Origin: a virus
Length of the DNA stretch: 64,000 nt
Reading direction: 5' to 3' (one strand)
IMG/VR virus record: IMGVR_UViG_3300035698_016830
Span: 41,937-105,936 of that record
Shown: positions 2,538 to 49,321 of the stretch, piece by piece
How the letters are laid out: the number at the start of each line of letters is the position of its first letter
How positions within the stretch are numbered: position 1 is the stretch's first letter
Translations under genes and position numbers: made by a program
Notes under the pieces: generated by a model
Databases searched by the model: none
Seen by the model: the letters and a program-made list of their open reading frames with translations, nothing else
Told to the model about the DNA's origin: nothing

Positions 2538-4393
2538 TAATTGATCAGATAGAGGCTCAAGGTTTCAGAAATCTTTATAAGCCTATGGTTTTCAAGTTAC
2601 CTAAAGAGAATGGGTTTTATTTTCTAACTGGTACAAATAAAGTCAACACAGATTTAGGGGCCAATGGAACAGGTAAAAGTTCTATATGGGATACGATATG
2701 CTACACGTTCTTTGGGAAGTCGGCTAGAGGATTGAGAGGCCCAGATCTTAAAACATGGCTGAGTGAAGACCCCTTGGCTACAGGCGTTCATTTTCATATT
2801 GGTGACGCGATCTATGTAATACGTCGAACTTGGTCCCCTAATTCATTGACTTTACAAATAGGAACAGCAAAACCAGAGAAGATCCAGCAGGATGAAATTG
2901 ACCAGCTGCTAGGTTGTAATTATGATCTGTTTTTGTTTGTTGTTTTGCAGGGTCAGTTTAATACTTTCTTTATTGATTTAAAACCAACAGATAAGCTTCA
3001 GGTATGGTCTAAAATATTAGATCTCGATGAGTGGTTGATTAGGTCAAAGAAGGCAAAAAAGAAGTTTGATGAAGAGCAAGGTGTGGTTTCCAAAGCTGAA
3101 GTTAGCTTGTCTAAGGTAGAGGGAATCTTGGAGACGTTGAAGTGGTCTTTACAAAGCCAACGTAAATTGAGAGAAGAGGAAAAACAAAGCAGGCAAAAAG
3201 CTCTCAATGAAAATAACACGGCTATAGATAAGCATCAAAAGTCTTTAAAAATGATAGCAAGTAAATTAAAAACTGTTAATGAGAACCAAGCAATAGCGGG
3301 GAGGGAGCTAGATAAGCTTGAAGAGCGGGAAGAAGTTTTATACTCTAAAATAGCTATTAGAACTCAGCAAAGGAATAAAGTTTTACAAGCTATAGCGGTT
3401 CATAAGAGTACAGAAAGAAGAATATTAAAAGAAAAGGAAAAGTTTGAAACCGAGGATCTTGAATGTCCTTGGTGTCAGCAGGAAATAACTAAAAAACACA
3501 AGACGCATATGTTGAAGGAGTTTGATAAAGAGCTAGTTATTTGTAGTAAGGAGATATCTTCTTGTAGTGAGACTGAAAAAGAGATTGATAGGCGGGTGGT
3601 AAATTTAAAAAGTAAATTAGAGGTGGTCTTAGACAAAGGAAGGACGATTGGCCGGGATGTAATTTCTTTGTTGATGGTAGATAAAAGTAAGTTTCTTAAG
3701 GACAAAGAATATCACCTATATGATATTACTCAACTGGAAAAGGCAAATGAGAATCTTAAGAAAGCCTCCAATACTGTAAAAGAAATAAAGAGATTGAAGG
3801 GGCAATTGACGGAAGCAAAGGAAGCAAAGAAAGCTTGTAAGGCTTCTTTAGAAAAAGCAAACGCTATGAGCGTATCATATAAACTTTGGATTCAGGTATT
3901 CAAAGATATAAGATTGTGGCTCGTTGATAGGGCACTAACTGAGCTTGAAATGCACGTAAATAATAGTTTCATCGAATTGGGCTTAAAAGGTTGGTCAATT
4001 GAATTCACTGTTCAGCATGAGAATAAATCAGGTGGGGTAAGTAAAGGCTTGATAGCCAAAATTAAATCACCACAGCAAGATAAATTAGTTCCCTGGTTTG
4101 TTTGGTCAGGTGGCGAAACGCAGAGAATCCGTATAGCTGTAGCAGTGGGTCTGTTACGATTGATACAATCCAGAACAGCTTTTAGTTGTAATTTGGAAGT
4201 ATGGGATGAGCCCACAGAGCATATGTCAGTGGAAGGTATCGAAGATCTTTTGAACTTTTTTGAGATGAGAAAAGATGATGATGATAAACAACTATGGATG
4301 GTGGATCACAGAAGTCTTGATTTTGGTGGTTTTGATGGATCGGTGCATTTGAATAGGACGAATAGGGGAGTTGAGGTGAAGTATGAGTACTAA
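2525..4393 (+). CDS. SbcC/Rad50/T4 gp46-like ATPase
   Basis: SMC-family ATPase partner of the SbcD-like nuclease. 622 residues in the standard order: Walker A GANGTGKSS (45-53), a long charged coiled coil (about 170-310), a zinc hook CPWC (314-317), the returning coil (320-460), ABC signature WSGGETQRIR (527-536), and Walker B with WDEPTE (560-565). The coil is short compared with cellular SbcC (about 1,000 residues), matching the T4 gp46 size class. Start ATG at 2525 overlaps the end of the preceding gene, implying translational coupling. Confidence 0.95.
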   Translation: MAKVIIDQIEAQGFRNLYKPMVFKLPKENGFYFLTGTNKVNTDLGANGTGKSSIWDTICYTFFGKSARGLRGPDLKTWLSEDPLATGVHFHIGDAIYVIRRTWSPNSLTLQIGTAKPEKIQQDEIDQLLGCNYDLFLFVVLQGQFNTFFIDLKPTDKLQVWSKILDLDEWLIRSKKAKKKFDEEQGVVSKAEVSLSKVEGILETLKWSLQSQRKLREEEKQSRQKALNENNTAIDKHQKSLKMIASKLKTVNENQAIAGRELDKLEEREEVLYSKIAIRTQQRNKVLQAIAVHKSTERRILKEKEKFETEDLECPWCQQEITKKHKTHMLKEFDKELVICSKEISSCSETEKEIDRRVVNLKSKLEVVLDKGRTIGRDVISLLMVDKSKFLKDKEYHLYDITQLEKANENLKKASNTVKEIKRLKGQLTEAKEAKKACKASLEKANAMSVSYKLWIQVFKDIRLWLVDRALTELEMHVNNSFIELGLKGWSIEFTVQHENKSGGVSKGLIAKIKSPQQDKLVPWFVWSGGETQRIRIAVAVGLLRLIQSRTAFSCNLEVWDEPTEHMSVEGIEDLLNFFEMRKDDDDKQLWMVDHRSLDFGGFDGSVHLNRTNRGVEVKYEY

Positions 4394-5633: not shown

Positions 5634-6218
5634 ATGAAAAAGACATATATCCCATGGTGTGAAATAGAGAAAAGATTAGAAGAAATTGATAAGGAAGGAA
5701 ATAAGGTGTTCGGTGTCCCTCGCGGCGGAGCAGTAGTAGCTTGCTTACTACGAAATGCAACTAGGGTTATGTCGCATAAGGAAGCAAATATAATTTTAGA
5801 TGATATTGTAGATTCTGGTGAAACGAGGAATGAATATATCTTAAAGACATGTGGTAAACGTTTTTTCGCTGTGATTGATAAGCAGATGGTGGAAGAACAT
5901 AAAACCTTGCCTTGGGTTGTCTTTCCTTGGGAGCATGAAAATGAAGTTGAAGAATTTGATGAGGTTTTGAAAAAAACCTTAACTCGTTTTATTGAAATGA
6001 ATGAAGAGTACCTTGATCCAAGTGCGGTAGAAGGTGTCAGAGCTGCATATAAGCAGCACGCGGGGACTAGTAAGATAGTAGCTAAGGTGATGATGGCTCA
6101 GAATATACTCACGCTGGGGCCTATTGCTAGGGATATGGACAGCTCCTTGGGTGAAGCCGTTGTTCAGGGGATACAAAAAATCAGGTCTTTTACTGAAATT
6201 GAAGAAGGAGCTGAATGA
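5634..6218 (+). CDS. phosphoribosyltransferase-like protein
   Basis: The PRPP-binding loop of type I phosphoribosyltransferases is visible as IILDDIVDSGET (53-64), preceded by VFGVPRGGAVVA (25-36), which matches the family's first loop. Such enzymes salvage or activate bases and nucleotides. After about residue 105 the protein carries an extra region (to 194) seen to be helical and of unknown role, so this is a PRTase domain plus a tail. ATG is preceded by GAAGGAATAG; the stop overlaps the next start by four bases. Confidence 0.78.
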   Translation: MKKTYIPWCEIEKRLEEIDKEGNKVFGVPRGGAVVACLLRNATRVMSHKEANIILDDIVDSGETRNEYILKTCGKRFFAVIDKQMVEEHKTLPWVVFPWEHENEVEEFDEVLKKTLTRFIEMNEEYLDPSAVEGVRAAYKQHAGTSKIVAKVMMAQNILTLGPIARDMDSSLGEAVVQGIQKIRSFTEIEEGAE

Positions 6219-21856: not shown

Positions 21857-21922
21857 GCTATGATGGCCAAGTCAATTGCTGTAAAGCAAGAATGTTGTAA
21901 GTCGACGCGGCATCCATCAGCT
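21857..21922 (+). ncRNA. tRNA-like structure with GUA loop, no D-arm
   Basis: Directly behind tRNA-Ile. GCT..GATGG (21857-21866) pairs with CCATCAGC (21914-21921) with a two-base bulge; inside are TTGC(TGTAAA)GCAA and ATGTTG/CGGCAT. The CTGTAAA string recalls tRNA-Tyr (anticodon GUA), but there is no D-arm and the T-loop lacks TTCGA. Either a degenerate tRNA or another structured RNA. Confidence 0.35.
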
Positions 21923-22771: not shown

Positions 22772-23224
22772 ATGAGAAAATTCAAACCATTTCAAATAAG
22801 GTGGAAAGAAGCTTTAGGCAAAGCAGAATGCCCATACCTTTATAGATGGACCTTTATTTTTTTCAATTACACTGTTAGAATACATCATTGGATCAGATCA
22901 GATGATAATAGGTATTTTCATGATCATGCTTGCAATCTTATTTCAATTATACTAAAAGGAAGGTATCATAATGTAGTGCCTTTGGATGATAATAATCCAG
23001 ATGTTACTAATTGCAGGAAGATTGAAGCTAGGGCTTGGAGACCTTGGTACGCAAAAGCAACAGCGAAGCATTATTTGCAAATACCTAAAGAAGGAGCATG
23101 GACTTTACTTTTGCAAGGACGACCATATCATAAATGGGGCTTCTACGTGAATAGCCATAAATGGAGACCATTAAGATATTTTAGTAAATTTGGAGTGATA
23201 CAAGATGAAAACTACAGCGGGTAG
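22772..23224 (+). CDS. cupin-like phage protein
   Basis: 150 residues with HHWIRSDDNRYFHDHACNL (two-His cupin motif 1) and LKGRYHN, then HKWGFYV towards the end, the pattern of a cupin-fold family common in phages near sugar or tail genes. Substrate unknown. The C-terminal codons and stop overlap the tRNA-like element that begins at 23215. Confidence 0.65.
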   Translation: MRKFKPFQIRWKEALGKAECPYLYRWTFIFFNYTVRIHHWIRSDDNRYFHDHACNLISIILKGRYHNVVPLDDNNPDVTNCRKIEARAWRPWYAKATAKHYLQIPKEGAWTLLLQGRPYHKWGFYVNSHKWRPLRYFSKFGVIQDENYSG

Positions 23225-23347
23225 CTCAGCGGTAGAGCGTCCATTTAGTTCGTGTTGGTTGTGTACAGGCCATATCGAGCGAACATGTGGAAGGTCGGTA
23301 AAGAGAGTTTGTTGGTCCAATCTTTGGTTCGATTCCACCCCTGCTGA
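23215..23347 (+). ncRNA. tRNA-like element with oversized anticodon arm
   Basis: Starts as a normal tRNA: acceptor CAGCGGG (23215-23221) pairs with CCTGCTG (23340-23346), D-arm GCTC(AGCGGTA)GAGC, and near the 3' end GG(TTCGATT)CC gives a T-loop. Between them 90 bases replace the usual 35: TCCA..GTTCG..CGAAC..TGGA forms an extended arm, followed by an unpaired purine-rich part. The T-stem is imperfect. It may be a tRNA with an insertion, or a tRNA mimic. It overlaps the end of the cupin gene. Confidence 0.5.
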
Positions 23348-24777: not shown

Positions 24778-25050
24778 ATGAAACGTAGAAATTTTTTAAA
24801 AAGTGTGCTTGGTGGAGTTTTAGTTCCTGTAGTAGTAAAAGCATAGCCAGTACCAGTAGTAGGAGAATTGAAAGAGTATCCAAAGAACAGACCTGTTGAG
24901 GATGTTGGCCTGTTGGTAGGGGGGACTACTGGCCCCTATGTTTTGAAAGACTATAATGGTGCAGAATAAAAGTATTATATACATTTTGCTCATGAGGTAG
25001 GTGGCAAAGATTCTTTGCGTGTATCAATGGTGGTTCAAGGGAATTTATAG
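24778..25050 (+). pseudogene. exported protein gene with in-frame TAG and TAA
   Basis: AAGGAGTTAGAATAAG and ATG, then MKRRNFLKSVLGGVLVPVVVKA, a Tat-like signal as in the proteins at 28090 and 28542. A TAG stands at 24844-24846, after which the same frame stays coding-like (PVPVVGELKEYPKNRPVEDV...) to a TAA at 24967-24969 and again on to TAG 25048-25050. Either a decayed gene or a frame with stop readthrough. Confidence 0.6.
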
Positions 25051-38342: not shown

Positions 38343-39028
38343 GAATTTTGTTTAAATATGCTACAAGGCAAAGGCCTCAGTGGTGTTTAAAAACGTTAGC
38401 AACATATTATAAGATGATATCAGGGAGGCATGATTGTTCCTTTGTTATGACAATTGATGCTGATGATGCAACTATGACCAATAATGCTATGCTATCACGT
38501 TTATCTATGTTTCCAGATTTAACTTTATTTTCAAGTGACCATGAAAATAAAATTGATGCAATAAATGATGATATCCCTGAAGATGGTTGGGATGTTTTGA
38601 TTATTGTAAGTGATGATATGGTGCCTGTTGTTGAGGGGTTTGATGATATCATTGCTAAGGATATGGAGAAGTACTTTCCTGCTTATGATGGCGCTTTGCA
38701 TTATAATGATGCTTTGTATGGAAAAAATAATACTATCACATATTCGATAATGGGCGTCAACCTGTATAAAACTATAGGGTATGCTTATCATCCTGATTAC
38801 AAAAGTATTTATTGTGATAATGAATTTACCGCAGTGGTAAGGAAAATGGATAGTTATAGGTACGTTGACAGAGTGCTTGTAGAGCATCAGTGGTGTGGGT
38901 TTGATTCTCCAGATGCATTGTGTAAAATCAATGATGCAAAAGGAAGAACGGATAGTGATACCTACAGAAAGCGTATGCAGGCTGGGTATCCGAAGAACTC
39001 AATTTTTGTGAAAGGGCCAGTAGTATGA
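38339..39028 (+). CDS. glycosyltransferase-like protein 2
   Basis: 229 residues. Begins MRILFKYATRQRPQWCLKTLATYY, has SFVMTIDADDATM (about 34-46) and WDVLIIVSDDMVPV (about 80-93): a GT-A-like fold with acidic clusters, known from phage and environmental genomes. ATGA overlap with gene 1 and with gene 3. Sugar unknown. Confidence 0.68.
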   Translation: MRILFKYATRQRPQWCLKTLATYYKMISGRHDCSFVMTIDADDATMTNNAMLSRLSMFPDLTLFSSDHENKIDAINDDIPEDGWDVLIIVSDDMVPVVEGFDDIIAKDMEKYFPAYDGALHYNDALYGKNNTITYSIMGVNLYKTIGYAYHPDYKSIYCDNEFTAVVRKMDSYRYVDRVLVEHQWCGFDSPDALCKINDAKGRTDSDTYRKRMQAGYPKNSIFVKGPVV

Positions 39029-39642
39029 AGATCTTAGAAAGTGTTTTGATTAAAAGATTTAAATGCGGTTATGAATTGCGGTCAGAATTGTGGAGTATCG
39101 CTTTAGGTGAGGAACCTACGAAAATGATAGCAGCCTATACACCTAGTGGTGATTATATTGGGAATAGTAAGGTTGCCTACAGGCTCGTAGTGAAGCGTGG
39201 TATTCAACCTCAAAAGGTAAGTAAGAACCATTGCGTATGCTCAATTGGATATTCAATTAAAGACGGTAAATGGTACGGATGGAGCCACAGGGCTATTTAT
39301 GGTTTTAAAATTGGTTCAACTTGTAAGTCAGGAGATTGTCATTACAGACCGAAAAACAAGCAAGATTTTCGTGAGGATTGCCGTAGATTTTGGACAGAAC
39401 CTTCACATCAGGATGTTAAGGCTGCTTATGTTAAAGATTGGAAGGAAGGTGATGGTAAAGCAGAGTCCGGTGTTTATACAAGTTGGGTTTATGCCGATAC
39501 TGTAAAAAATGAGAAGGTACGTGTTACTGTTTCTGGTGCATTCTCAGTATACCCAGAAGAGTTTGGTAAAGGTGCATGGACCGCTAAAACAACAGCAGAT
39601 GCAAAACAGATGGCAATAGATTTTGCTGATAATGTTTCGTAG
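39025..39642 (+). CDS. conserved hypothetical protein, 205 aa
   Basis: AYTPSGDYIGNSKVAYRLVVKRGIQP and VCSIGYSIKDGKWYGWSHRAIYGFKIG define a family seen in other phages and metagenomes without known role. Embedded in the glycosyltransferase run by ATGA overlap. Confidence 0.62.
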   Translation: MKILESVLIKRFKCGYELRSELWSIALGEEPTKMIAAYTPSGDYIGNSKVAYRLVVKRGIQPQKVSKNHCVCSIGYSIKDGKWYGWSHRAIYGFKIGSTCKSGDCHYRPKNKQDFREDCRRFWTEPSHQDVKAAYVKDWKEGDGKAESGVYTSWVYADTVKNEKVRVTVSGAFSVYPEEFGKGAWTAKTTADAKQMAIDFADNVS

Positions 39643-39657
39643 AGAAGGGTCAATAGT

Positions 39658-40230
39658 ATGAAACTAAGTATAATGATAACGGCTATCTCAAATCGCATTG
39701 AATTGTTCAGTGACTTACACAAAACATTAATAAAACAAGTTACACCTGAAGTTGAAATTTTAACAGCGTGTGACTATGAATCAACGGATACTGATAGGGT
39801 ATCTCGTGGTGGAGGAGCCAAGCGGAATAATCTTTTGAAAGCTGCTACTGGTGATTACGTAGTTTGGATTGATGACGATGACCTAGTGCCGGATTATTTT
39901 GTTGCAGAGATTCTAAAAGCAATTGAAAGTAAGCCTGATTGTGTTGGATACTGGAATGAGTGCCATTTAACCGAAGGAGGCAAAACTACTATTCGATTAG
40001 CAAAGCATTCCAATTCTGTAGATGAATGGGGTGAAGAAGATAAAATCTATTTAAGATCAATCACTTTCTTAAATCCTGTAAGACGTGATATCGCAATTAA
40101 GTTTCCATTTGATGGTACTTATACTGCTGATTATGAACAATCTAAACTGATGAAGCCCTATTTACATAAAGAAGTGTTTATTGATAAAGTTATGTATATT
40201 TACTATCCAGTTGGATCTAGACAATTATGA
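39658..40230 (+). CDS. GT-A (family 2-like) glycosyltransferase 3, paralog of gene 1
   Basis: 190 residues: KLSIMITAISNR, GGGAKRNNLLKAATGDYVVWIDDDD (about 52-76), NPVRRDIAIKFPF and C-terminal YYPVGSR, each aligning with the protein at 37797. Presumably adds a second sugar or acts on another acceptor. Confidence 0.82.
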   Translation: MKLSIMITAISNRIELFSDLHKTLIKQVTPEVEILTACDYESTDTDRVSRGGGAKRNNLLKAATGDYVVWIDDDDLVPDYFVAEILKAIESKPDCVGYWNECHLTEGGKTTIRLAKHSNSVDEWGEEDKIYLRSITFLNPVRRDIAIKFPFDGTYTADYEQSKLMKPYLHKEVFIDKVMYIYYPVGSRQL

Positions 40231-40505
40231 GTAAACTATGGCGTTGGTTTGGATTATCACATGCTTCATTTCTTACGCTTCCAAGAGTGCTTATGCACGC
40301 TATGCCTGAAGAGTGGCAAGATAAAATGACTGTCTTGCTAGAAGAATATGATAATACTTTTACAAATCAGCCAGACATAGGAACGCGGGTCCAAATAACT
40401 CAAAATGGTAAATTGGTAAAAACACCAGAATGGCTCATTAATTATAGACATCCTGATAAATTAACTATTGAAGAAGTAAAGAATAAGGAGATTGATGATG
40501 TTTAA
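40227..40505 (+). CDS. hypothetical protein, 92 aa
   Basis: Not recognised. MSKLWRWFGLSHASFLTLPRVLMHAMPEEWQDKMTVLLEEYD; a short phage protein often found next to head or sugar genes. ATGA overlap with glycosyltransferase 3. Confidence 0.55.
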   Translation: MSKLWRWFGLSHASFLTLPRVLMHAMPEEWQDKMTVLLEEYDNTFTNQPDIGTRVQITQNGKLVKTPEWLINYRHPDKLTIEEVKNKEIDDV

Positions 40506-40668
40506 AGCCAATAAGGTTGTACTTGAATGTAAGGAAACTTCTGAATTCTTTTTCAGCACCCCATTGAACAGGGTGACTAAGGCTTTGTTTATTAAGCGTA
40601 TACATGCCCTACGTTCAGCTTTAAGCTTGTTTGAAACTGAGTTGAATACCTTGGCAGGGGTTAAGTGA
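40498..40668 (+). CDS. small hypothetical protein, 56 aa
   Basis: MFKANKVVLECKETSEFFFSTPL...; overlaps the preceding gene by 8 bases, ribosome site AAGGAGATTGATG. Not recognised. Confidence 0.55.
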   Translation: MFKANKVVLECKETSEFFFSTPLNRVTKALFIKRIHALRSALSLFETELNTLAGVK

Positions 40669-40726
40669 TGATAAGCATCTTGATAAATTAATGGTAAACG
40701 CAACAAAAGAATGAAAGGTATAATTA

Positions 40727-41323
40727 ATGTACAGTCAAGGTAATGAAGAGAAATGGGTATTGGATCATTTCGGCAGTCAGATAGGCTCATTTCTAGATAT
40801 TGGGGCTTATGATGGGAAGTGTATGAGCAATACCCATGAACTAGCTTTACGTGGTTGGCCTGGTGTCTGCGTAGAGCCGTCTCCCTCTGTGATTAAAGCC
40901 CTGTTGAACCTATATAGGGGTAACGCCAAGGTTCAGGTAATTAACACCGCTATAACCAAGGACAGTGGATTAATGGTTCTGCATGATGCCAATGGGGACC
41001 TAATCTCAACTTTAGATGACGCCCATAGAGATGTGTGGGCAAAGCAGGGCGTTCCCTATGCTGATGTATTAATAAAAACTACCACTATGCAAGAATTGCT
41101 CACACATTGTGGTCATGAATTCACTTTTATAAATCTTGATGTGGAAGGGATGAATTGGGAACTTTTTGTAGAGCTGCCTTTACAAAATCTTACAAAGTGC
41201 GCTGCTATGTGTATTGAGTTTGACGGTAAAACACCAGTGAAGGAAAATATGATAAAAAGAGCTGCTGAGCATGGCTATAAGATGACACAACAGAATGGTG
41301 AAAATATCTTTTTTGTGAGGTAG
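40727..41323 (+). CDS. FkbM-family methyltransferase
   Basis: SAM-dependent O-methyltransferase typical of polysaccharide and secondary-metabolite clusters. 198 residues: FLDIGAYDGKCMSNT (SAM motif I, 22-36), CVEPSPSVIKAL (acidic loop II), FTINLDVEG-type motif read here as FTFINLDVEGMNWE, and the C-terminal strand. Probably methylates a sugar or glycan end. Confidence 0.85.
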   Translation: MYSQGNEEKWVLDHFGSQIGSFLDIGAYDGKCMSNTHELALRGWPGVCVEPSPSVIKALLNLYRGNAKVQVINTAITKDSGLMVLHDANGDLISTLDDAHRDVWAKQGVPYADVLIKTTTMQELLTHCGHEFTFINLDVEGMNWELFVELPLQNLTKCAAMCIEFDGKTPVKENMIKRAAEHGYKMTQQNGENIFFVR

Positions 41324-41326
41324 AGA

Positions 41327-42034
41327 ATGAAAACAGCAATACTAAACTATATTACTCTTAATGCGTGGCACCCACACGGACAGAAACGATTAGGAGAATC
41401 ATTAAAAAGACAAGGTTTCACAGGGGACTATCTAATATACAATCCACATAGTCTTCCTTGCATCACGCATAGCGAAGTTCCTTATGCATTCAAATTCTTT
41501 GCTATACTAGATGCTATAAAAAAGGGGTATGACAGAGTCCTCTGGCTAGATGCGTCGTTCTGGGCAGTACTTAATCCAGATTTTTTGTTTGATCGTATAG
41601 GGGAGGTAGGAGTACTTGTACAGAACTCAAGTTATTTTATGGGGCAATGGTCTTCTGATGCTTCTTTAAAACACTTAGGTATTAGCAGAGAAGATGCTTG
41701 GAAAATAAAAATGTATTCTGGTGGATTCATGGGTTTCGATTTGAAGAATAGTAAGGTACTAGATTTTCTTGCTGCTGTGGATGTTCAGATACTTCAAAAA
41801 ATAGGATTTCAAGGAGCTTGGACAAATAAAAAGCAGGAAGTCTCAACAGACTCAGCAGTGCGTGGGCACAGACATGATATGGTGGTTGGTTCTATTCTTT
41901 TAGAAAGATCTGGATTTCCTATTCAGGCAGATAACACCCTGTTCTCTTATTATGGATGGTATGAGAAATACAAAAATGAGTTAGACCTTAAAAACGTAGC
42001 CTTTGTTTGTGAAGGTGGAATGAGAAAAATATGA
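41327..42034 (+). CDS. GT-A glycosyltransferase-like protein 4
   Basis: 235 residues: AFKFFAILDAIKKGYDRVLWLDASFWAV (about 54-81) has the LWLDA metal-binding strand of GT-A fold enzymes, and SGGFMGFDLKNSKVLDFL matches the acceptor-side motif of GT8-like families. Spacing of 4 bases to FkbM. Confidence 0.68.
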   Translation: MKTAILNYITLNAWHPHGQKRLGESLKRQGFTGDYLIYNPHSLPCITHSEVPYAFKFFAILDAIKKGYDRVLWLDASFWAVLNPDFLFDRIGEVGVLVQNSSYFMGQWSSDASLKHLGISREDAWKIKMYSGGFMGFDLKNSKVLDFLAAVDVQILQKIGFQGAWTNKKQEVSTDSAVRGHRHDMVVGSILLERSGFPIQADNTLFSYYGWYEKYKNELDLKNVAFVCEGGMRKI

Positions 42035-42035
42035 T

Positions 42036-42761
42036 ATGGAAAAGTTCTTAAATAGGCATAAAAATAAGTTATGCTTCGTTCTTGGCTCGGGGCCATCGCT
42101 TCGTCATGTTGATGTTGAGATCTTAAAAAAGAATCTTGTCATTGTTGTCAATAGTGCTATTTTGAAGGCACCGTTTGCTCAGTATCTTTTCGGCTATGAT
42201 TTCGGCATGACTTTGCTCACTTCTTGGTTGACTTTAAAGGATTTAAAATGTGAACTTATTTTAAATAGAACAGTTGGCCAATGGAGTGGGTATGATCATG
42301 CCACAGGTTTAGTCGCGATGAAAGATATTGAGAAAGAAAGAATAACTTATTTCGAAGTAGAGGGGAAAACAGAATGTAAATTAGAACAGAACCCAAAGAA
42401 GCTTTTGATACTCCCTTCTTCTGTTCATGGGGCAGTGCATCTCGCTTATATCATGGGGTGCTCGCCCATAGTCTTGTTAGGCTGTGATTGTCAGTATGAA
42501 GATTCTAAGAGATATTTTACTGAGTTTAAAGGTCAGCCAGTGAATGGATTTATTAGACCTGAGTTTAAAAAACTCAGACCAGAAGTAACGACTAGGGTGT
42601 CATCTGGGGATGGATATTTAGGGGCTATAATAAATATGTGGTCTAAGATAAGAAATAACAATAAGGAAATTAATATCATAAACGCCTCTGGAGGCATTTT
42701 AGGTGCGTTCCCTAGAAAATCAGTGAAGGAAATTATAAAGGCCTATGATGCAAAAGTATGA
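42036..42761 (+). CDS. DUF115/Maf-like glycosyltransferase or MptE-like protein
   Basis: 241 residues. KLCFVLGSGPSLRHVDVEILKKNLVIVVNSAI is the GSGPSL signature of the DUF115 group, which includes the Maf enzymes that attach nonulosonic acids to flagellin; HLAYIMGCSPIVLLGCDCQY gives the second motif. In this neighbourhood a role in transferring the cassette's product is attractive but is inference. Confidence 0.62.
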   Translation: MEKFLNRHKNKLCFVLGSGPSLRHVDVEILKKNLVIVVNSAILKAPFAQYLFGYDFGMTLLTSWLTLKDLKCELILNRTVGQWSGYDHATGLVAMKDIEKERITYFEVEGKTECKLEQNPKKLLILPSSVHGAVHLAYIMGCSPIVLLGCDCQYEDSKRYFTEFKGQPVNGFIRPEFKKLRPEVTTRVSSGDGYLGAIINMWSKIRNNNKEINIINASGGILGAFPRKSVKEIIKAYDAKV

Positions 42762-43653
42762 GAATGGTAATAAAAAGGTTTGTAAAAGGGTATCATGCTA
42801 TCTTTGTGGATGTAAAGATGTTATTCAAATTGCAGATAAAGTAAGGGACAGAAATGATATAGCAGTTTTGAAATGCAAGAAGTGTGGGTTGGTTTTCCTT
42901 TCTTCATTTGATCATATTACAGAAAATTTTTATAAAGAATCAAATATGCATAAGAACAAAAATTCATTTGAATTAGCATAATGGATAAATGCAACAAAAA
43001 TAGATGATGATAAGAGGATCGATAGGCTTAAACAAAATCTTAAAGGAAAATGTTTATTAGATTTTGGAACAGGAAATTGTGGTTTTCTTTTTAAAGCGAG
43101 TGTTTACGCTAAACAAACAGTAGGTATCGAAGTAGAGGCAAAAGTAAAATCAGCTCTATCAAAAAAACTTAAGAAACATAACATAGCATTATATGAAGAT
43201 ATTTCTGAAATAAGTTCAATGAAATTTGATATTATAACTTTGTTCCATGTGATTGAGCATTTGCCAAGACCTAAAGTACTCCTAGCAAAGCTTAAAAACT
43301 TGCTTACAAAAAATGGCAAGATTATTATAGAGACCCCAAATTCTGATGATGCTTTAATTAGTTTGTATAAAAATAAATCATTTATGGATTCTACATTTTG
43401 GAGTTGTCATTTATTTTTATTCAACCAAAAGACTTTAGAAGAAACGGCAAAACAATCTGGATTGCAATTAGATAGTATTACGCAAATTCAAAGGTACCCT
43501 TTAGCTAACCATTTACATTGGCTAGCTAAAAGTAAACCAAACGGACACCAAGAATGGGCTTTTCTTGATTCAAAGAAAATAAACGCTTTATATGAGAAAC
43601 AATTAAGATTATTGGGTATGTGTGATACCTTAACAGGAACTTTTTGTATTTAA
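42745..43653 (+). pseudogene. zinc-headed SAM methyltransferase with in-frame TAA
   Basis: One reading frame of about 302 codons interrupted by TAA at 42979-42981. N-terminal part: CYLCGC and CKKCG zinc ribbon, FYKESNMHKNKNSFELA; after the stop the frame goes on WINATKIDDDKRIDRLK, CLLDFGTGNCGFLFK (SAM motif I), FDIITLFHVIEHLPRPKVLL and IIIETPNSDD. This is the order of C-methyltransferase-like enzymes of sugar clusters. No ribosome site follows the stop. Broken by point mutation, or read through. Confidence 0.75.
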
Positions 43654-43671
43654 GAAGTGTGAAGGAGTCTG

Positions 43672-45088
43672 ATGGTACAGACCAAAAATGTATTATTGAT
43701 TGTCCATGACTTATACCAAGATGATTTGTGGTTCCCTTTAGGTACAGGGTATATTGCCGCGTCATTGCAAAAAGCAGGTGTTAATGTAGTTGTTTGTAGT
43801 TAAGACGTTTATCACTACACCGACCAAGAAATGATAAATAAGTATTTGAATGTAGAGTATGATTTTATTGCTTTAGGGTTTTTAGCTGCAAGATTTAAAG
43901 AAACAGTAGTTCCACTTTGTAAGTTAATTACTAAGTATAAAGGTAAAGCGAAGTTGATATTGGGTGGCCATGGTTCATCTGCTGTTCCACTATATATGCT
44001 AAAAAAAACTAAATGCTGATATTATTGTTATAAGTGAAGCTGAGCAATCCATAGTTGAGATAATGCAGGAACAAAATTTATCTACTATATGTAATATAGC
44101 TTATGTGGATAAAAATGGTAATTCACATATTAATGCTTCAAGTAAACCTAGCAACATCGATGCAATACCTTACCCGCTTTGGGATGCATTCCCAATGGAG
44201 AGTTATGCTTTAAGCACTATAGGAATAAATCAGAGTAATAATAGTAGAGGAATGCAACTAATTTCAAGTAGAGGCTGCATAAATAAATGTACTTTTTGCC
44301 ACAGAATAGGAAAGGGAGAAAGATTCAGAAAGGTATTCAATGTAGTTAGTGAAATGAAATATCTTTATGATTTTTATAATGTGACATATTTCACATTTTT
44401 AGACGAGCTATTAATAGTATCTTTGGACAGGCTTAAAGAATTTGCGCGTTGTCTTGAATTATTTGATTTACTAGGTAAAATTAAATTCAATGCTGGTGGT
44501 ATTAGATCAAATGTAGTGACTGATGAAATAGCTTCCTTATTTGAGCATATAGGTTGTCAATATATGACTATTGGTTTCGAATCGATGTCTGAAGATGTAT
44601 TAAAGAAGATGAGAAAAAATGTAACTCCTGAGGATAATATCAGATGTTTAGAAATTTTACGTAAGCATAAAATCCATGTTGGTATAAATTTTATCTGGGG
44701 TATGCCTGGTGATACGGAAAAAACATTAAGACAGAATGCAGACACTTTAAAAAAATACAATACGTATGGTGAGTTGAGGACTATAAGGCCAGTTACACCA
44801 TATCCAGGCAGTGAGTTATTTACAATAGCTGTTGAGCAAGGTATGTTATTAGGCCCTGATGATTTTTTTAATAAGTTTAATAATTCAGATTTGATATCCG
44901 TTAATTTTATAGATCTACCTATTGAGAAAATGTATGAATGTCTATTTGAGATTAACAGTGAGTTGATAATTGATCACCATGAACATATTGGTGGCAATCC
45001 TGAGGAAGATATAAAACATCTATACGATCTGTACTTCAATGATTTTACAAGTTTTCGTGGATTTCGAAAGTATGAAAGGAAAGAATAG
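43672..45088 (+). pseudogene. B12-binding radical SAM protein with in-frame TAA and frameshift
   Basis: Begins at ATG 43672 after GAAGGAGTCTG: VLLIVHDLYQDDLWFPLGTGYIAASLQ is a B12-binding domain start. TAA 43801-43803 stands where relatives have Gln (CS-stop-DVYHYTDQE). Further on, A8 at 44001-44008 shifts the frame; with seven A's it would read MLKKLNADIIVISEAEQSI. The remaining 341 codons hold the radical SAM cluster motif RGCINKCTFC and the barrel. Intact, it would rearrange or methylate a sugar or lipid by radical chemistry. Confidence 0.8.
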
Positions 45089-45090
45089 CT

Positions 45091-45828
45091 ATGAACGATT
45101 TATTTTCTGTTGAAGGTAAAAATGTTTTGATCACTGGTGGGTCTGGTGGTATAGGATCAGAGCTTGTAAATGGATTCATAAAAGCAGGTGCCCATGTAGT
45201 ATCATTCGACAAAGTTCCATCTACAACCAACTGTGAGCAGCACGTGCTTATTGACTTGTCGAATAAACAAGACATTGAGCAAGTATTCGCTGAATACATT
45301 GAGCTGCATGATAGAATAGATGTATTAATAAACTGTGCAGCTGTTACAATTCCAAATGTGAGTGTAATGTACCCACTTGAATCCTGGGATAGTACAATGA
45401 ATGTGACTCTTAATTCAGTATTCTATATGTGTAGATTGACAGGCTTACAGATGCGAAAGCAAGGCACTGGTGGTTCTATTATCAACTTCACGAGTATCAA
45501 CGCTGCCCAAGCTATGCCTCATAATCCAGCATATGCAGCTGCTAAAGCAGGTGTGAGGCATTTGACAAAATCTTTTGCTTATGACTTTGGAAAATATAAT
45601 ATCAGAGTAAATAATATTGGTCCAGGGTATACAAAAACAAAAATGAATACCAAAAGTTTGTCTGACCCAGCTGCCTACCAATTACGTGCTGATAATAGCA
45701 TGTTGGGTCGATGGGCTAATCCAATAGAAATGGTGGGACCGGCAATTTTTCTTGCGTCTGATGCATCAAGTTTTGTCACTGGCACTGATTTATGGGTTGA
45801 TGGTGGTTGGCTTTCAAAAGGAATGTGA
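45091..45828 (+). CDS. short-chain dehydrogenase/reductase (PtmA-like)
   Basis: NAD(P)-dependent oxidoreductase, 245 residues: LITGGSGGIGSELV (cofactor loop, 11-24), INCAAV, catalytic Ser in NFTSINAAQ, YAAAKAGVRHL (YxxxK) and NNIGPGYTKT. In nonulosonate clusters a homologous SDR lies beside the CMP-sugar synthetase and NeuB, as here. The precise sugar step is not known. Confidence 0.86.
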   Translation: MNDLFSVEGKNVLITGGSGGIGSELVNGFIKAGAHVVSFDKVPSTTNCEQHVLIDLSNKQDIEQVFAEYIELHDRIDVLINCAAVTIPNVSVMYPLESWDSTMNVTLNSVFYMCRLTGLQMRKQGTGGSIINFTSINAAQAMPHNPAYAAAKAGVRHLTKSFAYDFGKYNIRVNNIGPGYTKTKMNTKSLSDPAAYQLRADNSMLGRWANPIEMVGPAIFLASDASSFVTGTDLWVDGGWLSKGM

Positions 45829-45829
45829 T

Positions 45830-46507
45830 ATGAGTTTAATTTGTGCCGTAATACCTGCTAGGTGTGGTTCAAAATCTATTAAAGATAAGAACATACAATT
45901 ACTTGGTGGAAAGCCCTTATTAGTCTATAGTATTGAAACAGCTATTCATAGTATTTTTATAGGTAGGATTATAGTTTCAACTGATTCTGAAGAGTATGCA
46001 GCTATAGCTTCTAAATGGGGGGCTGAAGTGGTGGTAAGGCCTAAAGAGCTATCACAAGATAACAGTTGTGATGTTGATTGGGTGTTGCATTTGTTATCTC
46101 AATTAAAGGAAAAACCAAAGTACCTAGTTCATCTAAGGCCAACATCTCCTCTCAGGCAATCTTTTATTGTAAATAATGCTATTAGGTGTATTAATAATCA
46201 TCCAGAAGCATCGGCTCTAAGATCAGTAACACCACAAGCTCAATCTGCTTATAAGCATTTTGAAATTGATGGATCCTATTTAAAATCGGTAGGTTCTGGT
46301 TCTTTTAACCTTGATGAAGCAAATAAACCTAGACACCTGTATCCAACTACCTATGATGCCAATGGGTATGTTGATATTTTGAAAACAGCGTATGTATTAA
46401 AAAATAATAGAATTCATGGTGATAAAGTAATCCCGTTTATGGTACCAAGAATAACGGACATTGATACGCAAGAGGATTTAGATTATGCAAGATTTGAAGC
46501 AAGGTAG
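45830..46507 (+). CDS. CMP-nonulosonate synthetase (NeuA-like)
   Basis: Activates a nonulosonic acid with CTP. 225 residues: AVIPARCGSKSIKDKNI (CTP-binding P-loop-like motif, 6-22), GKPLLVYSIE, STDSEEYA, HLRPTSPLRQ and the metal-binding DIDTQEDLDYA at the end. Starts one base after the SDR stop. With NeuB it forms the core of the pathway. Confidence 0.9.
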   Translation: MSLICAVIPARCGSKSIKDKNIQLLGGKPLLVYSIETAIHSIFIGRIIVSTDSEEYAAIASKWGAEVVVRPKELSQDNSCDVDWVLHLLSQLKEKPKYLVHLRPTSPLRQSFIVNNAIRCINNHPEASALRSVTPQAQSAYKHFEIDGSYLKSVGSGSFNLDEANKPRHLYPTTYDANGYVDILKTAYVLKNNRIHGDKVIPFMVPRITDIDTQEDLDYARFEAR

Positions 46508-47765
46508 AACAAAGGTCCTACTGGTATCTTTTTATAACAAGGAAGCCTATGGAATGAGAATATTGCATTCCATGCTTGCTGATAAATATGATGCTAAAAT
46601 GCTATACGTAGAAGAAAACAATACGCAATTAATAATTGAATTGTTAAATAGTTTCAAGCCTGATGTTCTTTGCTTTAGTTTAGTTTCATCTAATTTTATG
46701 CTATACAAAAAATTGTATAAGCAAATACGAAAAATAGGTATTTTCAAAATAATTTTAGGTGGCTGGCAGCCAACTTTGAACCCTGATAAATGTTTGCCTT
46801 ATTGTGATGCTTTGTGTCGAGGTGAGGGTGAGAACGTAATTTTAAAAATAATGGAAGACTTCAAGTGTGATACATTGAAAAAAGTTTACATGGAGGGCTT
46901 AAAACCACTAGATTACCCTATTTTTAAATTTGATAACCAATATTCATTTATTCTAGAAAAAGGAAAGTTAGAACAAAAGGAACCTTATTTTGAAAACGAA
47001 CGATATGGAACTATGATAGGCAGAGGTTGTCCGTAGCGATGCACCTATTGTTCAAATAATTATATGCATGAGCTATACCCTACTTGGAATAAAACCAGAT
47101 TTAGAAATATTGATAGAGTTATAGATGAGCTGAAACTAGTAAAAGAAAAATTAAGTAAGGTACAAAGAATCAATTTTTATGATGAAGTATTTATACCTGG
47201 AAAATGGATAAATGAATTTGTGTCTAAGTATAAAAAGGAAGTTGCTTTACCGTTCTATTGTATGTTTTATCCAGGCACCTGTAATGAGGAGACAGCGGAA
47301 AAATTAGTTGAAGCTGGCCTAATTGGCGTATGGATGGGCGTACAATCTGGATCTGAACGAGAAAGAAAGAAAGTCTTTAAAAGGTATTACACTAATAGTA
47401 CTCTCCAAAACCAAATAAGAATATTTCGAAAATGTGGTATTTCTATAAAGTATGATTTCATTTTTGATAGCCCTTTTGCAACCGAAGATGATTTTATAGA
47501 GACTATTAAGTTAATAAGGGGACTTCCTAAGCCTTTTTTGATAAATATGTTCTCTTTAAAATACTTTCCCAATACTGAGATCACTGAGATGGCTTTTGAG
47601 GCAGGGCTAATACAGAAAACAAATGATGAGCTAGATGTCGATTGTCCAGATTTTATGTTAGATGTAAAAAAACAGGAAGAAATAATGAAATTAGTAAATG
47701 AATCTTCTATAAATATTTCAAAATGCAAAGAATATTTTAAAGGAACACAATGTCAAATTACTTAG
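46485..47765 (+). pseudogene. B12-binding radical SAM protein with in-frame TAG in cluster motif
   Basis: One frame of 426 codons with TAG at 47034-47036. Before it: KVLLVSFYNKEAYGMRILHSML, LCFSLVSSNF, IILGGWQPTL (B12-binding domain). The stop falls inside the iron-sulfur motif, GRGCP-stop-RCTYCSNN, where relatives have Tyr, Trp or Phe. After it the radical SAM barrel goes on (INFYDEVF, GVWMGVQSGSER, FIFDSPFATEDDF). The frame is otherwise intact, so the lesion is a single codon. Confidence 0.8.
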
Positions 47766-48415
47766 AAACAATTTACTTTCGTAATGAACAAGGTGAGTAT
47801 GATTACCCACAGCAGTTGTGTGATTACCTGGTAAAACGATACAAGCTTAGTGGTCGCCTTCTTGATGTTGGATGTGGTAAGGGTAACCATTTGGTTGCAT
47901 TTAATCGAAGATTCTTACATACTGAGGGTATTGATTCTAGGCCAATAACATCAGAAATATCAAAGTGTGATTTAGAAAAAGAGGAGTTCCCAGAACTAGA
48001 AAATGACTTTGATGTTGTATTTTCAAAATCAGTAATTGAGCATGTCAATAATGCTGATAATATTATATCTGAGATTAAGAGGGTATTGAAACCTGGTGGC
48101 AGGGTCATCCTATTGACTCCTGATTGGAATACTACGCATGAGGTTTTTTGGGACGACTACACACATGTAAAGCCATGGACAAGAAAGTCTTTGCAAGACG
48201 CTTTGATGATCCATGGCTTTACTGAAGTGAAGAGTGAGTTATTTAGACAGCTTCCTTTAGTATGGAAATACCCAAAATTAAATTATATATGTGATTTAAT
48301 TAGTTTGTTGCCACATTCGTTTAAATGGAAGGATAGGGAAGAAAAAGAGTTTAGAACTTGGGTGAGGTTTTCAAAAGAAAAAATGATATTAGCTACAGGA
48401 ACTAAACCATGCTAA
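47750..48415 (+). CDS. class I SAM-dependent methyltransferase
   Basis: 221 residues: LLDVGCGKGNHLVAF (motif I, about 37-51), FDVVFSKSVIEHVNNADNII (motif post-II), VLKPGGRVILLTPDW. Substrate presumably a sugar intermediate or finished glycan. Starts inside the end of the radical SAM gene. A 84-base gap with a short hairpin (ATAGAC/GTCTAT) follows. Confidence 0.84.
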   Translation: MSNYLETIYFRNEQGEYDYPQQLCDYLVKRYKLSGRLLDVGCGKGNHLVAFNRRFLHTEGIDSRPITSEISKCDLEKEEFPELENDFDVVFSKSVIEHVNNADNIISEIKRVLKPGGRVILLTPDWNTTHEVFWDDYTHVKPWTRKSLQDALMIHGFTEVKSELFRQLPLVWKYPKLNYICDLISLLPHSFKWKDREEKEFRTWVRFSKEKMILATGTKPC

Positions 48416-48499
48416 AGCATATTGAAATTATAGACTAGGTCTATTGCCTTAGAGCATTGTAATAGAAATTGTTGAAATACCAATGAAAGGTAAAAAGTA

Positions 48500-49321
48500 A
48501 TGATGATCGTAGCTGAAATAGGAATCAATCATAATGGTGACATCGATATTGCAAAGAAAATGATTGACGTAGCAGCGAATGCAGGATGTGATGCAGTGAA
48601 ATTTCAAAAGCGGACTATTGATCTAGTCTATACAGAAGAGGAATTAGACAAGCTTAGAGAATCACCGTGGGGCTATACAAATAGGGCGCAAAAGGAAGGC
48701 CTTGAATTTATTGAAACAGATTATTGTGCAATTAATAAGTATGTTAAAGAACTGGGAATGACCTGGTTTGCATCTCCTTGGGATATTGAATCTGTAGAAT
48801 TTCTAAACAGATTTGATAATGATTATATTAAAGTTGCCTCGGCGTCGGTTACAGATTTAAAATTACTACAAGCCATTAAAGCAACTGGTAAGAAAAGTAT
48901 TCTTTCAACTGGCATGTCTACGCAATGCGAAGTTGGTTTTGCTGTTGATGTTTTGGGCAAAAACTTGGAGTATATTCTTGCATGCACTTCAACATATCCA
49001 ACAAAACCTGAAGAAATAAATTTGAGTTTTATCCGTACTCTTAAAGATGAATTTCCAAATATTAAAGTTGGTTTTTCAAACCACAGCCCAAGTATAGCTT
49101 TTTGTAGGGCTGCTTCTGTTTTAGGTGCTGATATGATTGAGTTCCATTTAACATTGGATCGCTCAATGTATGGATCTGACCAATCAGCCAGTATTGAACC
49201 TTATGGAGCAGAACTAATTGTAAAAAATGCAAAAGTGATACAAAAAGCGCTGGGTGATGGAAAATGGACTGTATACCCTTCTGAAGAAGAAATTAAGAAG
49301 AAATTGAGGAAAACTGTATAA
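48500..49321 (+). CDS. nonulosonate synthase (NeuB-like), lacking SAF domain
   Basis: Condenses phosphoenolpyruvate with a six-carbon amino sugar to a nine-carbon nonulosonic acid. 273 residues: MIVAEIGINHNGDIDIAKKMI, AVKFQKRT, LGMTWFASPWD, DYIKVASASVTDLKLL, STGMS, CTSTYPTKPEEINL, VGFSNHSP, EFHLTLDRSMYGSDQSAS. The TIM barrel is complete, but the C-terminal antifreeze-like (SAF) domain of usual 340-residue enzymes is missing, so substrate closure may depend on another protein. RBS GAAAGGTAAAAAG. Confidence 0.9.
   Translation: MMIVAEIGINHNGDIDIAKKMIDVAANAGCDAVKFQKRTIDLVYTEEELDKLRESPWGYTNRAQKEGLEFIETDYCAINKYVKELGMTWFASPWDIESVEFLNRFDNDYIKVASASVTDLKLLQAIKATGKKSILSTGMSTQCEVGFAVDVLGKNLEYILACTSTYPTKPEEINLSFIRTLKDEFPNIKVGFSNHSPSIAFCRAASVLGADMIEFHLTLDRSMYGSDQSASIEPYGAELIVKNAKVIQKALGDGKWTVYPSEEEIKKKLRKTV

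Follow-up and report, generated by a model that had tools for sequence, protein, structure and literature searches.

Probable recent pseudogenisation of three genes in a phage-borne nonulosonate-type glycan cassette

A methyltransferase gene (MT) and two genes for B12-binding radical SAM proteins, all belonging to a phage-borne, nonulosonate-type surface-glycan cassette, have probably become pseudogenes in the recent past. The window analyzed here comprises 64,000 nucleotides, corresponding to bases 41937-105936 of the virus record IMGVR_UViG_3300035698_016830 (record length 105,936 bases), and all positions refer to this window. The three reading frames are broken at codons that are sense codons in the orthologues, and the orthologues are generally intact. 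Five in-frame TAR codons had been predicted from the sequence, at 42979, 43801 and 47034 in the cassette and at 24844 and 24967 in a fourth, smaller frame, each within well-formed flanks and, in the three cassette genes, at a sense position of the relatives. The codons and their coding flanks were confirmed, with Pfam matches across or beside the cassette stops, a coding score for the fourth frame, and sense codons in relatives at the three cassette stops and at TAG 24844. Decay, read errors and stop readthrough had been offered as explanations, and decay turned out to be the best supported of these.

The cassette begins with a glycosyltransferase gene (start at 39658) and a gene for an FkbM-type methyltransferase (start at 40727). 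On the plus strand, an intact gene for an MptE-like or sialyltransferase-like protein (42036-42761) is followed by the broken MT (42748-43653), which comprises a Methyltransf_23 domain and an N-terminal, Zn-ribbon-like CxxC part, and by the broken radical SAM 1 (43672-45088). Two intact genes, assigned by Pfam, separate these from the broken radical SAM 2 (46485-47765), namely a short-chain dehydrogenase (SDR; 45091-45828, 64% identical to contig L189) and a CMP-sugar cytidylyltransferase (45830-46507, 65% to L189). A second methyltransferase (47750-48415; Pfam, 62% to L189) and the nonulosonate synthase NeuB (48500-49321; Pfam NeuB 8.1e-66, 73% to contig L161) complete the set, again on the plus strand and intact. 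The three broken genes were assigned by both Pfam and their orthologues.

Related gene sets were found in bacteria as well as in other viral contigs. The locus L085 of the Ca. Omnitrophica MAG AM5_bin-0158 holds MT, radical SAM 1 and 2, the cytidylyltransferase, NeuB and the second methyltransferase within 17 kb; these are the same six genes and all are intact, but the locus is larger and differently ordered than the phage cassette. On L161, L189/L190, L168 and other IMG/VR contigs, NeuB, the cytidylyltransferase and SDR, MT or radical SAM 1 occur together. Here, the copies are uninterrupted, identity to the phage cassette does not exceed 73%, and the gene sets vary. Profile searches matched radical SAM 1 on 29 IMG/VR contigs and MT on 9, in most cases alongside part of the cassette; near-duplicates (e.g., L189/L190 and L191/L192) were counted and the figures represent records and not independent phages. 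With single-sequence patterns, no relative of radical SAM 2 or of SDR was found in IMG/VR. The phage records contained no DNA relative of the region, and a protein search of these records gave no match for radical SAM 2 and only Streptomyces phage SF3, at 24% identity, for radical SAM 1.

The MT frame contains an in-frame TAA at 42979-42981 (plus strand). Read through this codon, it yields a Methyltransf_23 protein (Pfam 3.6e-19), and relatives carry D, L, S, R, I, Q, V or A at the stop site. All nine copies on the IMG/VR contigs found by profile are uninterrupted. The identity to L189 was 63% before and 61% after the stop, and 65 of the 77 invariant residues are retained. In other phages and in Omnitrophota, MT adjoins radical SAM 1.

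Radical SAM 1 bears two independent lesions on the plus strand. An in-frame TAA occupies 43801-43803, a sense codon in relatives, and the frame is lost at a run of eight adenines (A8; 44001-44008), where the homology to L085 and L161 changes frame and then resumes in a different one as far as 45088. The original prediction had considered each lesion minimal and had missed this frame break, so that the description does not hold for radical SAM 1. Translated through, the gene gives a match to B12-binding and Radical_SAM Pfam domains (8.8e-20). The supposed Gln-like character of the stop site was borne out in most relatives (Q in 29 and K in 4, with overlapping loci of one genome counted repeatedly), while the nearest relative has S. 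The identity to L161 was 70% before the stop, over 37 residues only, and 57-58% thereafter, and 77 of 101 invariant residues are kept, a share similar to that of the intact L085 copy. All 25 complete, uninserted copies on the 29 IMG/VR contigs are uninterrupted; three copies cut by the contig end (L186-L188) and one split by an intein (L185) were excluded from this count. Some Omnitrophota matches had been flagged as having internal stops and were checked by tblastn with the second part of radical SAM 1, where the sole stop among the alignments lies at the extreme C-terminus (L122). True internal stops occur in single distant homologues (L109 and L157), as expected of ordinary pseudogenes.

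In radical SAM 2, the plus-strand TAG at 47034-47036 falls within the iron-sulphur motif GRGCPxRCTYC, between the first and the second Cys of CxxxCxxC. The translated-through protein matches Radical_SAM (Pfam 1.9e-20), all 26 invariant residues are kept, and the identity to L085 is 55% before and 54% after the stop. The 33 relatives' matches, again with overlapping loci of one genome counted repeatedly, show a sense residue at this site: F (15), Y (11), N (4), H (2) or M (1). Homologues of this gene are mostly open frames.

With regards to their age, the lesions look recent, because the two sides of the stops show similar identity to the relatives and because the divergence of MT from L189 resembles that of its intact neighbours (61% versus 62-65%). 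At no more than about 60% identity, the nearest relatives are too distant for dN/dS. Exact patterns around two of the stops found no sibling contig. Conserved residues are largely kept in the broken genes, which is also compatible with sequencing error or with retained function.

The lesions are concentrated in MT, radical SAM 1, radical SAM 2 and the fourth frame, while the cassette neighbours are free of them; the lesion-bearing genes were chosen for their lesions, and no formal P value is claimed for this clustering. For comparison, the phage DNA was aligned to the ORFs of terminase-carrying relatives. Over the 17.3 kb that aligned, no interrupted sense-strand gene and no frame change was found; stops within sense-strand alignments occurred only at gene ends, and the remaining stops fell in antisense matches. 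Compositional scans elsewhere, which are of low sensitivity, revealed ordinary gene boundaries only. Since the codon-usage scans overlooked at least two known stops, our argument rests on homology and not on codon usage.

This distribution bears directly on sequencing or assembly error, which we consider unlikely but the most serious alternative to decay. A locally poor stretch of this uncultivated contig could have produced both the false stops and a wrong homopolymer length; one lesion does lie at a homopolymer, and the read-through proteins are well conserved. However, a random substitution has only about a 5.7% chance of producing a stop, and three stops in 3.6 kb would therefore imply a local error rate of about 1.5%. 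A uniform error rate does not account for lesions that cluster in few genes, and a local one would have to spare the intact cassette genes between the broken ones as well as the 17.3 kb of comparable, lesion-free phage DNA.

The genomic context suggests how recent decay could have affected several genes of one cassette. MT and radical SAM 1 lie next to each other both in Omnitrophota and in other phages, which suggests that MT and the two B12-type radical SAM enzymes probably formed one modification branch. If this branch was no longer useful to the phage, selection on it would have been relaxed, and the loss of one member would have freed the remaining members from selection. Nonsense mutations could then arise independently within the branch, together with one frame break, while the sugar-activating part, consisting of NeuB, the cytidylyltransferase, SDR, the sialyltransferase-like protein and the second methyltransferase, would be kept. 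Judging from the sequence, the truncated MT and radical SAM 2 products should be inactive, since the MT stop lies ahead of the SAM-binding motif and that of radical SAM 2 interrupts the iron-sulphur motif. Overall, the cassette of this phage seems to be in the process of losing one branch. The case resembles decaying accessory phage genes in general, with independent stop and frame lesions, intact genes in relatives and unaffected neighbours. It differs from these in nothing essential, although it is unusual that lesions affect three genes of a single cassette and that each is otherwise well conserved.

Readthrough of the stops or TAR recoding, perhaps by a phage suppressor tRNA, had been proposed with insertion of Gln, Tyr or Trp, and it is now very improbable. 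In its favour, the five stops are without exception TAR, Gln occupies the radical SAM 1 site in most relatives, and TAG 47034 and TAG 24844 are directly followed by a 3' C, a weak termination context. As a count, the absence of TGA is correct; as a signal it fails, because TAR codons make up 74% of the one-step nonsense opportunities in the broken genes and five of five is a chance expectation (P = 0.22). TAA and TAG are also the normal terminators of this phage, ending 84 and 30 of 149 largely non-overlapping ORFs in the 106-kb record (TGA: 35), with no sign of depletion. At none of the three cassette sites do the relatives carry a stop, whereas programmed readthrough would be expected to conserve its position. 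Relatives' residues differ between the sites, so that one inserted residue fits poorly; Gln, for example, is absent from all 33 matches at the radical SAM 2 site. Furthermore, readthrough would leave the frame break in radical SAM 1 unrepaired.

A suppressor anticodon was not found either. The tRNAs called with confidence were Ile-TAT, Leu-TAA and Tyr-GTA, and neither these nor the tRNA-like element at 23215-23347 provide UUA or CUA. This element, which had been singled out as a possible aid to readthrough, does score as a tRNA (30.4 bits), and its acceptor, D and T arms are good. However, 62 nt are inserted within or close to the anticodon arm, and ARAGORN reads the element as Lys-TTT or Leu-TAG depending on the settings, neither of which is a suppressor. 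It represents either a tRNA in the course of loss or a tRNA with an atypical insertion. A second proposed element at 21857 was called by neither ARAGORN nor Rfam, and its fold was not clearly better than that of shuffled sequences (z = -1.33). Phages using genetic code 15 (TAG = Gln), e.g., crAss-like phages, likewise carry in-frame TAR codons in recognizable genes (PMC9523058, PMC10607447), and recoding there extends across many genes, with TAG reported within 41 ORFs of phAss-1. Unlike in such phages, only four frames are concerned here, TAR is a normal terminator and no suppressor tRNA was found. Readthrough or recoding thus remained unsupported, having failed each test run, and this removes one candidate for stop-codon recoding.

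Phase variation, in which slippage at the A8 run would toggle radical SAM 1 on and off, is just as improbable. Surface-glycan genes are often phase variable via homopolymers, and the frame of radical SAM 1 is indeed lost at such a run. However, slippage could restore neither the TAA upstream of the run nor the nonsense codons in two other genes, and the relatives' frames are uninterrupted across the region. Least probable of all is a dosage control by the stops, in which the host or the 23215-23347 element would partially suppress TAR and so yield a little full-length MT and radical SAM 2.

The fourth frame, a small signal-peptide-like phage ORF on the plus strand (24778-25050) interrupted by TAG 24844 and TAA 24967, probably is or was a genuine gene. 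Among 3340 control windows of 90 codons taken from the reverse strand, none combined at most two stops with a codon score at least as high. Residues 1-29 match a phage ORF in L198, the one relative available for the TAG 24844 site, which has Ser there. The closest relative of the phage terminase, L005 (72% identical), contained no match to the frame. This is probably a small phage gene in decay and unrelated to the cassette.

As a by-product of this work, a phage cassette family comprising NeuB, a CMP-sugar synthase, B12-radical SAM proteins and methyltransferases emerged on many uncultivated viral contigs. The cassette at 39658-49321 recurs, with a changing set of genes, on some 30 IMG/VR contigs as well as in Omnitrophota, and this family is more interesting than the stops, which are themselves ordinary. 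On L185 (3563-6768), two intein halves interrupt a phage homologue of radical SAM 1 at CxxxCxxC, with Cys1 at 4181 and a C-terminal half that starts at 5887 and ends in VHN|C. Between the halves lie a DNA methyltransferase-like ORF with a DPPY motif and a Phage_endo_I-like ORF, and the arrangement resembles a naturally split intein accompanied by a homing endonuclease. Directly ahead of the glycan cassette in the window, the gene at 39025-39642 strongly matches the Pfam family of the type I Thoeris inhibitor Tad6 (PF25188, 7.3e-52) and is likely an anti-defence gene.
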